Position numbers and translations under genes: made by a program
The notes under the pieces: model-generated
Told to the model about the DNA's origin: nothing
Seen by the model: only the letters and a program-made list of their open reading frames with translations
The model's database searches: none
Shown here: positions 29,448-31,184 of the stretch, piece by piece
Layout: each line of letters begins with the position of its first letter
Numbering within the stretch: position 1 is the first letter of the stretch
From: Microbacterium sp.
GTDB taxonomy: Bacteria; Actinomycetota; Actinomycetes; Actinomycetales; Microbacteriaceae
Reading direction: 5' to 3'
Length of the DNA stretch: 64,000 nt
Assembly (NCBI GenBank): GCA_013823625.1
Contig: PNMM01000003.1
Coordinates: 62,001 to 126,000 of the forward strand

Positions 29448-30446
29448 CTAGCTCCAGTGCGGGTAGTGCGCCTCGACAACGTTCGGGTGCGAGCGCACGC
29501 GGCTCTTGAGCCAGTTGACGCCGAACACCGGGTGCAGTGGATTGCTGGGGTCGCGGGTCACGCCCGCGGCCTCAGCCGCGAGCTCGGCCGGAAGGTCGAT
29601 CGTCGGAATCTCGGCGTCGAGCGCGGGCCCGAAGAAGAACGGCACCGAGATGCGCTCGTCACCCGCAGCGGGTGACTGCACGCGGTGCAAGGTTGCCTTG
29701 AGGTAGCCGTTCGTCGCGATCTCCAGCAGCTCACCGATATTGACGACGAAGGCGCCCGGTACCGGCGGGGCGTCGATCCACTCGCCGTCTTTCTCGACCT
29801 GCAGGCCGCCCTTGCCGTCTTCGACGTAGAGCAGCGTCAGCACGCCCAGGTCTTTGTGGGCGCCGACACCTTGCGTGCCCTCGGTGCGCTCGCGCCCCGG
29901 GTAGCGCGCAATCTTGAGGTGCGGTGACGCATTGCCCGCGAAGGCCGCGTCGAAGGTGTCGGCGGGCGCCCCGAGCGCCTCGGCCCACGACCGCAGCAGG
30001 GTGACGCTGATCTCGCCGAGTTGGTCCATCCACTCCACGGTCACGTCACGCAGCGCCGGCAACTCGGCGGGCCAGAGGTTGGGGCCCTCGAGCGCCCAGA
30101 AGTCGGGCACGCCGGGGCCGAGCGGCACAGCATCCCGCTCAGCACCAATGTCGATCTGTTCGCGCCAGTCGGTGGCGCCTTGCGTCAGTTCGCCACCCAT
30201 GCGGGTGTAGCCGCGAAAGTGCGGGCTGTGCGTGTTTTCGATGGCGAGCTTGGCCTCGACCGGCAGCGCGAAGAAGGCACGCGCCGTCGCCATCATGCGG
30301 TCGAAGAACTCGGGCGGCAGGCCGTGGCCCACGAGGTAGAAGAAGCCGATCTCGTGCGTCGCGCGGCGAAGTTCGTCGCGAAAGCGAGCCGCGTCGGCGG
30401 CGGTGCCGGAGAGAAGCGAGAGGTCGAGCATAGGAAGCGTGCGCAT
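29448..30446 (-). CDS. Isopenicillin N synthase-like 2-oxoglutarate/Fe(II) oxygenase
   Basis: A 332-residue oxygenase with the N-terminal DIOX_N part (VGHGLPPEFFDRMM) and the jelly-roll catalytic domain. The iron ligands are His197 and Asp199 in AHKDLG and His254 in LHRVQSP, followed by the 2-oxoglutarate-type R-x-S (RISVPFF). The substrate is not predictable; plant and bacterial relatives oxidise varied small molecules. The ATG at 30446 (MRTLPMLDLS) matches the family start and has AGGA upstream. The transcript begins with a poly-cysteine leader peptide, so expression probably responds to cysteine supply. Confidence 0.88.
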   Translation of the reverse strand: MRTLPMLDLSLLSGTAADAARFRDELRRATHEIGFFYLVGHGLPPEFFDRMMATARAFFALPVEAKLAIENTHSPHFRGYTRMGGELTQGATDWREQIDIGAERDAVPLGPGVPDFWALEGPNLWPAELPALRDVTVEWMDQLGEISVTLLRSWAEALGAPADTFDAAFAGNASPHLKIARYPGRERTEGTQGVGAHKDLGVLTLLYVEDGKGGLQVEKDGEWIDAPPVPGAFVVNIGELLEIATNGYLKATLHRVQSPAAGDERISVPFFFGPALDAEIPTIDLPAELAAEAAGVTRDPSNPLHPVFGVNWLKSRVRSHPNVVEAHYPHWS

Positions 30447-30450
30447 GAGG

Positions 30451-30547
30451 GTTGTCCTGTTCGTCTGAAGGTGGTTGTCGGGGCGGGCGCGAAGAAGGCG
30501 CACCGGAGAACTAGTTCGCAGAAAGAACTAGCGACAACAGCAACAAC
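30451..30547 (-). promoter_or_regulatory. Candidate cysteine-responsive attenuator
   Basis: On the minus strand the Cys codons of the leader peptide (GTTGTTGCTGTT, 30547-30536) can pair with the ribosome-binding region of the oxygenase gene (AACAGGACAAC, 30461-30451): 5 pairs, a T-G wobble with one bulged G, then 5 pairs. A second complementary segment, CGACAAC (30480-30474), matches the last Cys/Arg codons. Between them a 7-base-pair hairpin CTAGTTC/GAACTAG (30531-30525 and 30517-30511) starts at the leader stop codon. A ribosome stalled on Cys codons would expose the binding site. Confidence 0.6.
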
Positions 30548-30563
30548 AGAACAGCGCGTTCAT
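30528..30563 (-). CDS. Poly-cysteine leader peptide MNALFCCCCCR
   Basis: An 11-codon ORF with five consecutive Cys codons (TGT TGT TGC TGT TGT) followed by Arg and TAG. The ATG lies 9 bases after an extended -10 (TGCTATGGT), so the mRNA would start about three bases before it, nearly leaderless. It is 82 bases upstream of the oxygenase start on the same strand. Leaderless Cys-rich leader peptides that control downstream sulfur genes by attenuation are established in mycobacteria; this one has no other plausible role. Confidence 0.65.
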   Translation of the reverse strand: MNALFCCCCCR

Positions 30564-30572
30564 GATGGCTCG

Positions 30573-30578
30573 ACCATA
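30573..30578 (-). promoter_or_regulatory. Extended -10 TATGGT of the leader peptide transcript
   Basis: On the minus strand TGCTATGGT (extended -10) precedes the leader ATG by 9 bases; TTGATC about 15 bases further upstream is a weak -35 candidate. Confidence 0.5.
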
Positions 30579-30622
30579 GCAAATCTCTTCACCGATCAAA
30601 ACTCGCGATCGCGGCGGTGCTG

Positions 30623-30637
30623 GTGTGCTCAGCACAC
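30623..30637. promoter_or_regulatory. Palindrome 1 between oxygenase leader and gpx
   Basis: GTGTGCTCAGCACAC, 7-base perfect arms around one C, in the divergent promoter region. A dimeric regulator site is likely; the regulator is unknown. Confidence 0.5.
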
Positions 30638-30638
30638 G

Positions 30639-30654
30639 CTCGACAATTGTCGAG
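30639..30654. promoter_or_regulatory. Palindrome 2 between oxygenase leader and gpx
   Basis: CTCGACAATTGTCGAG is a perfect 16-base palindrome, one base after palindrome 1 and about where the -35 region of the gpx promoter would be (-10 at 30687). Confidence 0.55.
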
Positions 30655-30686
30655 GCGGCGCACCGGCGGCGCTCAGCAACGAGGTC

Positions 30687-30692
30687 TACGGT
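30687..30692 (+). promoter_or_regulatory. -10 hexamer TACGGT, leaderless gpx
   Basis: TACGGT ends 6 bases before the ATG at 30699. Confidence 0.5.
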
Positions 30693-30698
30693 CAAACG

Positions 30699-31184
30699 AT
30701 GATGACGCTGACGGATGCCCCTCTCACGATGCTCGATGGCCGCGAAACCTCGTTCGCCGAGTTCGCGGGCCAGGTAGTTCTCGTCGTCAACGTGGCCTCC
30801 CGCTGTGGGCTTGCACCGCAATACGCCGCGCTCGAAGCACTGCAGAAGACCTACGGCGACCGCGGATTCACCGTGCTCGGCGTTCCCTCGAACCAGTTCT
30901 TGCAAGAGCTGTCGAGTGAGAAGAAGATCGCCGACTACTGCAGCACGACGTGGGGCGTCACCTTTCCGATGACGGAGAAGGCCAAGGTCAACGGCAAGAA
31001 GCGCCACCCGCTCTACGTTCAGCTCGTGCAGGCCCCCGATGAACACGGTGTGGCAGGACCCATCACCTGGAACTTCGAGAAGTTTCTCGTGCTGCCGAGT
31101 GGCGAGGTGCACCGCTTTCGCCCGAACGTGCATCCCGACGCGCCCGAGATCGTGGCGCTCATTGAAGCGAACCTGCCGCACTAA
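30699..31184 (+). CDS. Glutathione peroxidase family (thioredoxin-dependent) peroxidase
   Basis: A 161-residue thiol peroxidase. The peroxidatic Cys is in NVASRCGLAPQY near residue 37, with the catalytic Gln (VPSNQF) and Trp-Asn (ITWNFEKF) also present. Actinobacteria lack glutathione, so the reductant is probably thioredoxin or mycothiol-linked. A second Cys in DYCSTTWG near residue 88 is a candidate resolving Cys. Start at 30699 is fixed by the promoter hexamer (MMTLTD); a second ATG follows at once. It is divergent from the oxygenase leader. Confidence 0.9.
   Translation: MMTLTDAPLTMLDGRETSFAEFAGQVVLVVNVASRCGLAPQYAALEALQKTYGDRGFTVLGVPSNQFLQELSSEKKIADYCSTTWGVTFPMTEKAKVNGKKRHPLYVQLVQAPDEHGVAGPITWNFEKFLVLPSGEVHRFRPNVHPDAPEIVALIEANLPH

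Follow-up and report, generated by a model that had tools for sequence, protein, structure and literature searches.

A cysteine-codon leader with a covarying hairpin precedes an orphan 2-oxoglutarate-Fe(II) oxygenase gene in Microbacteriaceae and is a candidate ribosome-mediated cysteine sensor

The DNA of Microbacterium sp. analysed here (contig PNMM01000003.1, positions 62,001 to 126,000; this whole stretch of 64,000 nucleotides is termed the window) carries on its minus strand, upstream of a gene encoding a 2-oxoglutarate (2OG)-Fe(II) oxygenase, a leader open reading frame (ORF) with five consecutive Cys codons followed by structured RNA. It is proposed that this element is a ribosome-mediated cysteine sensor that holds the oxygenase low and releases it when Cys-tRNA is scarce, its target participating in cysteine supply, a reading to which we assign a probability of about 0.78. 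Sequence comparison evidences a conserved leader, covariation of the hairpin at its stop codon (P1), an association with cysteine-related genes and an origin within a single clade; we infer that cysteine is what is sensed, that its scarcity raises expression, that translation is the step controlled and that the enzyme serves cysteine supply. In this way a regulatory RNA assigns a putative metabolic role to an orphan oxygenase family, which three gene arrangements place with cysteine synthesis, and Cys-leader control, here with a covarying hairpin, is extended to another family in the form of a short, testable switch.

According to the proposed mechanism, transcription would begin at the leader start codon or close to it, with immediate translation of the Cys-rich leader by a ribosome. 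With ample Cys-tRNA the leader would be finished and its Cys codons would pair with an anti-Cys segment around two hairpins, giving a closed compact structure that, in the window, would take in the Shine-Dalgarno (SD) sequence of the oxygenase and keep its expression low. With scarce Cys-tRNA the ribosome would stall at the Cys codons, the structure would stay open and the oxygenase would be made. The following features of the window, all on the minus strand, are the basis of this proposal:

30573-30581, minus strand: extended -10 element TGCTATGGT, read directly, with a TANNNT counterpart in 21 of 21 leader-bearing orthologues
30528-30563, minus strand: leader ORF MNALFCCCCCR-stop, with ATG at 30563 and TAG at 30530-30528
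30534-30548, minus strand: five Cys codons in a row (TGT TGT TGC TGT TGT), the unique run of five TGY codons in the window
30511-30531, minus strand: hairpin P1, formed at the leader stop by CTAGTTC (30531-30525) and GAACTAG (30517-30511), double-sided changes in 5 of 6 modelled pairs
30484-30505, minus strand: hairpin P2, CGG-GCGC with GCGC-CCG, from alignment and fold
30474-30480, minus strand: anti-Cys segment CGACAAC, partner of GTTGTCG in the last Cys/Arg codons (30538-30532), the two forming helix H1
30453-30461, minus strand: AACAGGACA, including the SD AGGA (30458-30455), paired with codons 4-7 in the minimum-energy fold
29448-30446, minus strand: oxygenase of 332 aa resembling isopenicillin N synthase (IPNS) and ethylene-forming enzyme (EFE), with Pfam DIOX_N and 2OG-FeII_Oxy

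In a preliminary description of this DNA an extended -10 was placed directly before the ORF MNALFCCCCCR, with a 7-bp hairpin at its stop, 82 bases before the oxygenase. Direct reading of the minus strand bears out the promoter element (30581-30573), the ORF and the hairpin, which moreover covaries among relatives, and gives 81 bases from the end of the leader ORF to the ATG of the oxygenase (30446). The end of TGCTATGGT lies 9 nt from the leader ATG, and a spacing of 9-10 nt between the -10 hexamer and the start codon fits a leaderless or near-leaderless start, which is probably the situation of the window leader. The run of five TGY codons occurs once in the 64 kb of the window and in none of 100 dinucleotide shuffles. 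A simple scan of positions 30380-30780 for sigma-70 promoters gave none that includes a -35 box, and Rfam release 15 gave no family for region 30300-30800, where the single hit was Cis2_sRNA on the other strand (20.1 bits versus a cut-off of 50). A glutathione peroxidase gene (30702-31184, plus strand) is divergent from the oxygenase leader and shares its upstream region, which might connect thiol stress with the control by cysteine.

The leader is conserved together with the oxygenase. In the genus of the window, represented by 26 genomes including the source genome (G000, 2.45 Mb; the named relatives that were matched are mostly Microbacteriaceae, among them Microcella alkaliphila), the oxygenase was found in 19 genomes at E<=1e-60 and all 19 carry the Cys-rich element in the same place. 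The covariance model R1, which comprises the leader and the downstream RNA, matched strongly in 21 of the 26 (E<=1.9e-8), namely these 19 and two genomes whose element is located at the end of a contig; the other five of the seven genomes without a full oxygenase match (G106-G109, G119) are also without a strong element. In G100 the element is followed by oxygenase residues 3-99 and then by the contig end. Among 126 orthologue loci examined, 25 had a Cys-rich short ORF (sORF) within 500 nt upstream, or 21 once near-copies (L050-L053, of L033, L036, L041 and L046) were removed; L040 of genome G112 was also left out as its oxygenase is short of about 40 N-terminal codons. The leader-bearing orthologues belong to the genus of the window, to Agromyces with the genus designated g79 (probably that of Agromyces) and to Promicromonospora, and no such sORF was detected in this interval in orthologues from Microbacterium, Arthrobacter, Cryobacterium or Rhodococcus. 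In all 21 distinct leader-bearing orthologues the end of TANNNT is 9-10 nt from the sORF start; the number of leader Cys residues varies from 3 to 5, the Cys cluster being kept while adjacent codons change to Arg or Leu, and 78 to 217 nt separate the leader stop from the gene. Conservation of the Cys run in close relatives, on which the preliminary description had made its proposal depend, was thus observed and extends to more distant ones. In the locus of G112 (L040/L151, a 71%-complete assembly) the element runs nearly straight into the oxygenase frame, the missing N-terminal codons reflecting a deletion or an assembly fault.

Three parts make up the conserved core of the RNA that follows the Cys codons: hairpin P1 (in the window its 5' arm holds the leader stop codon), a second, GC hairpin and the anti-Cys segment (CGACARC in most). 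An alignment of 18 leaders with their downstream RNA (A1; L033, L042 and L045 left out) was followed by a second alignment (A2) of 36 elements, nine of which precede cbs and were not used in model building. In P1 the window version CTAGTTC/GAACTAG is replaced by CTAACG/CGTTAG and other versions with pairing retained, which accounts for the double-sided changes listed above. Across the 36 elements 91.9% of cells were paired, and double-sided changes were found in 7 pairs (3.5 in shuffles) and 32 cells (11.3+-2.2 in shuffles), with none of 500 shuffles matching either value; this signal was lost when the pairing partner was slid by 1-3 columns. Helix H1, in which the Cys tract pairs with the CGACARC-like segment, was paired in 94.9% of cells.

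The identity of the other genes headed by this element points to cysteine. In the source genome of the window R1 found one strong copy (E 3e-24), the next best match having an E of 0.019 and the three next-best loci being without a Cys sORF. Among 398 genomes of the family, 23 matches were obtained at E<=1e-3: 12 oxygenase leaders (8 in the genus of the window and 4 in genus g79, with the downstream oxygenase confirmed), 9 elements directly before a cbs-type gene and 2 weak ones that have no Cys sORF. The search of 394 genomes of the class gave 4 matches, one of them outside the family (G770); both searches used stricter filters with which weak matches are lost. Otherwise the element occurs outside the family in Promicromonospora (L054). 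For the cbs-type proteins encoded in G067, G083 and G251 the best assignment was cystathionine beta-synthase (TIGR01137), with scores slightly below the cut-off and matches confined to the first 320-333 of 457 positions. Within the genus of the window itself, no Cys cluster of the leader type was present in the 450 nt upstream of 25 cbs and 5 cysK genes, apart from a few longer ORFs that contain two neighboring Cys, which were taken as chance occurrences and disregarded. Weaker or contig-end matches of R1 were inspected at ten loci plus L187 and L188; L131-133, L165, L170-173, L187 and L188 were dropped as chance matches without a Cys sORF. The weaker match in G770, which belongs to another family (L189, positions 1501-1597, E 4.3e-6), has a leader MHHLCCRCR followed by a 138-aa protein without a Pfam family, with a rhodanese-like ORF, assigned by eye, on the opposite strand.

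In several genomes the oxygenase and the cysteine genes are joined in one operon. The order leader, cbs, cystathionine gamma-synthase or gamma-lyase (CGS/CGL), oxygenase, with short gaps, was observed in G067, G083, G251 and Aurantimicrobium minutum (L057), and in G067, G083 and Aurantimicrobium the gene after cbs scored above the cut-off for cystathionine gamma-synthase PRK07811. In G046 leader, cbs and CGS are present, and no oxygenase was found in the adjoining stretch or by a search of the genome. In Cryobacterium the oxygenase directly follows cysK-cysE in four of five loci (not in L122), there without a Cys leader; the cysK/cysE pair of L096 is above NCBIfam cut-offs and the cysE of the others was assigned by eye. 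Clustering of the gene neighborhoods of 80 loci produced mostly antisense artefacts, the cbs/cysK cluster being the informative one. Just upstream of the leader-cbs-CGS-oxygenase operon of G083 lies a gene (L191:5816-6976, minus strand) for a flavin mononucleotide (FMN) monooxygenase of the NtaA/DmoA family (TIGR03860, above cut-off).

In a protein tree of 107 orthologues all 24 leader-controlled oxygenases, that is, the 21 preceded directly by a leader and 3 from operons (L005, L006 and L057), form one clade with support of 100/97. Ruicaihuangia, the nearest neighbor of this clade in the tree, has no Cys leader. Since the leader-controlled enzymes are one clade with a leader-less neighbor, Cys-leader control of the oxygenase most likely arose once. 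Because the same element precedes cysteine-synthesis genes, the sensing of cysteine is likely.

The 133-nt leader RNA of the window folds with -40.5 kcal/mol (z -2.48), a value equalled by 1 of 200 shuffles. In the minimum-energy fold UGUUCUGUU (30553-30545, codons 4-7) forms nine contiguous pairs with AACAGGACA (30461-30453), spanning the entire AGGA. The preliminary description had instead paired the Cys tract with AACAGGACAAC (30461-30451) in about 11 pairs with one bulge; that duplex can be drawn, its full form is confined to the species of the window, and its choice of codons gave way to codons 4-7, with which the SD pairs better. A second match proposed there, CGACAAC (30480-30474), is present and corresponds to the conserved anti-Cys segment, the partner of the final Cys codons. 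Of the eight closest sequences, six retain AACAGG ahead of the ATG, while the ACAAC that follows AACAGG is found in the window alone, with an ACAAA variant in a 98% relative. A single conserved helix closing the SD had been expected; as its registers shift among these eight sequences, it is not claimed as covarying. Over 25 loci that are not independent, the Cys arm forms on average a stronger duplex with its spacer than with shuffled versions of it (mean z -0.97), those of the window (z 0.3) and of L048 (z 2.1) being no better than the shuffled ones.

The effect of a ribosome on the accessibility of the SD was computed for 25 loci, of which nine precede cbs (L033, L037, L004, L047 and L049 left out; the SD of four of the nine cbs genes is not recognisable, and the site 10 nt ahead of the start codon took its place). 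With a ribosome on the first Cys codon, the predicted cost of opening the SD region of the window drops from 8.5 to about 3.0 kcal/mol, and the mean gain over the 25 loci is 1.9 kcal/mol versus 0.8 with shuffled spacers. In 21 loci the cost fell by >0.5 in 15 with the ribosome on the first Cys codon and in 11 with it on the last. The forms with a long untranslated region (long-UTR forms) do not behave alike: a gain is seen in L056 and L007, and little or none in L048 and L054.

Several results weigh against the proposed switch. The gain in the window is equalled by 20% of shuffled spacers; seven of the 25 loci (L036, L044, L046, L048, L181, L185 and L186) show no gain; a ribosome parked at the stop codon likewise lowers the cost by >0.5 in 9 of 21 loci; and where the UTR is long, about 100 nt separate the end of the structure from the SD. 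As for the RNA comparison, H1 is nearly invariant among these sequences and adds conservation, not covariation. Further pair types were no higher than in shuffles (16 versus 16.2 in the 36 elements, 12 versus 14.1 in the 18 sequences), the double-sided pair count of the 18 training sequences alone was equalled by 55 of 500 shuffles, and the relatives in A2, an alignment fitted to the model, are not independent. As the gain is uneven across loci and that of the window lies within shuffles, release of the ribosome-binding site (RBS) by a stalled ribosome is no more than plausible on these computations. The initial idea that cysteine scarcity stalls the ribosome and exposes the RBS is well supported by comparison as regards the sensing, and its release step is plausible and unevenly computed.

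A possible, though clearly less probable, alternative keeps the same Cys-sensing leader and places the control at transcription elongation: after fast leader translation a C-rich, G-poor spacer would load Rho, and a stalled ribosome or an alternative fold would block it. Rho-dependent attenuation stays a rival because of the composition of the spacers. In the 21 leaders these have C fractions of 0.40-0.52 and G fractions of 0.16-0.31 (0.41 and 0.19 in the window). For 100 orthologues without a leader, the corresponding means over the 100 nt ahead of the gene are 0.33 and 0.29, with a C/G ratio of 1.5 or more in 11 of them; an excess of C over G predicts Rho sites weakly. A consensus scan of positions 30380-30780 found no intrinsic terminator (hairpin plus U run; 0 sites), and in this respect the region departs from a classical terminator-attenuator. 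The loci without a gain in SD opening likewise fit Rho, which was proposed for Cys leaders in the available text of Seliverstov et al. in 2005 (PMC1262725). The pairing of the SD in the window fold argues for translation instead, as does the mycobacterial precedent, which is termed translation attenuation in the parts seen of a paper citing it.

It is quite improbable that the leader is no Cys sensor and that its translation couples to, or boosts, that of the oxygenase, the Cys codons being kept as the RNA arm of H1. The last codons (mostly TGY-TGT-CGC) indeed double as peptide and helix arm, and the number of Cys varies; against this, the Cys cluster persists where neighboring codons turn into Arg or Leu, the same leader precedes cbs, and the variable distance from leader stop to gene is a poor fit to coupling. 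That the ORF arose by chance, as the end of a long frame that runs antisense to the gene for glutathione peroxidase and is open upstream to 31181, is extremely improbable given that the run of Cys codons was absent from all shuffles and that the -10, the start codon, the Cys cluster and the covarying hairpin are conserved even where a different gene lies upstream (L164).

The protein encoded downstream of the window leader is an IPNS/EFE-like 2OG-Fe(II) oxygenase. It scored 112 bits with Pfam DIOX_N and 91.4 bits with 2OG-FeII_Oxy, both above cut-offs, and H197, D199 and H254, together with R265 and S267, are invariant in 29 oxygenase sequences; we take them to be the H-x-D...H iron ligands and the R-x-S residues, respectively. 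The AlphaFold2 model (pLDDT, a per-residue confidence score, 93.6) matched structures of the ethylene-forming enzyme, TraH and IPNS-like types at Z of about 30-36, including 9ovh (Z 35.4, 40% identity), 6jyv (Z 34.9, 33%) and 6vp4 (Z 35.5, 24%). These matches to a predicted model indicate the family and not the substrate, and NCBIfam provided no name for the window oxygenase or for two operon orthologues. Being alike in fold and family to the EFE/IPNS-like 2OG oxygenases, the window oxygenase differs from them by its cysteine-linked gene context.

As to the function of this enzyme, the genes that fit a target in cysteine metabolism directly are cbs and cbs-CGS, and the oxygenase is linked to them by gene order only (cbs-CGS-oxygenase and cysK-cysE-oxygenase). 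Since the same element heads cysteine-making genes in relatives, a role in cysteine supply is proposed, and this evidence suggests that the oxygenase is an unrecognised part of cysteine acquisition. The sulfite/nitrite reductase domain PF01077 was not found in 24 of the 26 genomes of the genus, G000 included, by a search that was positive in 11 of 14 control genomes; the two matches in the genus lie within frames of 886 and 938 aa, presumably of the nitrite-reductase type. It was also not found in any of the nine genomes with a leader before cbs, several of which are incomplete. A streamlined Microbacteriaceae genome without 3'-phosphoadenosine 5'-phosphosulfate (PAPS) and sulfite reductase is described, in the portion of the source available, as requiring Met and Cys, its sulfur acquisition being called unclear (PMC6106888).

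A sulfonate-cleaving, TauD-like role was considered and appears less likely, as it would be of little use where no PF01077 gene was found and sulfite could not be reduced. If sulfite is indeed not reducible, a reaction that frees a thiol from a thioether would be the likelier one. In a more specific version, the oxygenase would be an unrecognised cysteine-supply enzyme of sulfite-reductase-less Microbacteriaceae that performs a 2OG-dependent oxidative S-dealkylation (e.g., of an S-alkylcysteine or a methionine-type compound), feeds cbs and cystathionine gamma-lyase and is induced by the covarying Cys-codon element, which would have had a single origin and remained with the oxygenase, the cbs-CGS pair being later lost or inserted; this sulfur-scavenging scenario is rather unlikely. 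PF01077 is also missing from the five oxygenase-free genomes of the genus (G106-G109, G119) and from four of six genomes with a leader-less oxygenase, and it is matched in all four leader genomes of genus g79. Its absence fits lifestyle and does not track the oxygenase, and the probability of scavenging was therefore lowered.

Cys leaders as a kind are already known. Canestrari et al. in 2020 (Mol Microbiol 114:93) reportedly tested the polycysteine leaderless sORFs of mycobacteria. These sORFs were noted in 2015, according to the available text of PMC4633059, and the passages seen of citing papers (PMC9094748, PMC13236596) describe them as Cys leaders of cysteine-related genes for which ribosome stalling is proposed and translation attenuation is the term used; this literature bears out the mycobacterial precedent invoked in the preliminary description. 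The window element is alike in having a leaderless-type, Cys-rich leader and differs in its oxygenase target and its covarying hairpin core. R1 matched one non-family genome (G770) in the 394 class genomes, which may or may not include mycobacteria. As in the polycysteine-leader type, a Cys-codon cluster lies in a short ORF upstream of the target; an alternative structure that would sequester the RBS is predicted in the window fold, with the limits on SD gain given above. For cys operons and the cbs gene of Bifidobacterium longum, upstream Cys-rich leaders without conserved terminator hairpins were predicted in 2005 (Seliverstov et al., PMC1262725, in the text available). They are alike in their Cys codons near the stop, the cbs target and the lack of a terminator; the window-type element differs by the covarying hairpin at the leader stop, and its oxygenase target is absent from that portion of the text. 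The uORFC-8-2 motif before cysS in Rhodobacterales, as presented in the sections seen of PMC8632094, likewise has Cys codons in an upstream ORF within a structured RNA, ribosome-mediated attenuation being proposed, and differs in its intrinsic terminator, phylum, gene and structure. No report of cysteine control of the IPNS/EFE-like oxygenase family was encountered in the literature searched, in agreement with what had been stated at the outset. Within the literature searched, what is new is the covarying element, its placement before an oxygenase gene, the association with cysteine-synthesis genes and the proposed role in cysteine supply.

Leader-less orthologues have upstream words of another kind. 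Several Microbacterium oxygenases (e.g., L069, L075, L084, L092 and L112) have in common GGTAA(C/T)-N5-GCAACA-like words about 60 nt before the ATG, and other leader-less orthologues have CGTAACA ahead of a leaderless-looking start. Read by eye, these words are possibly the site of a regulator that replaces the Cys leader.
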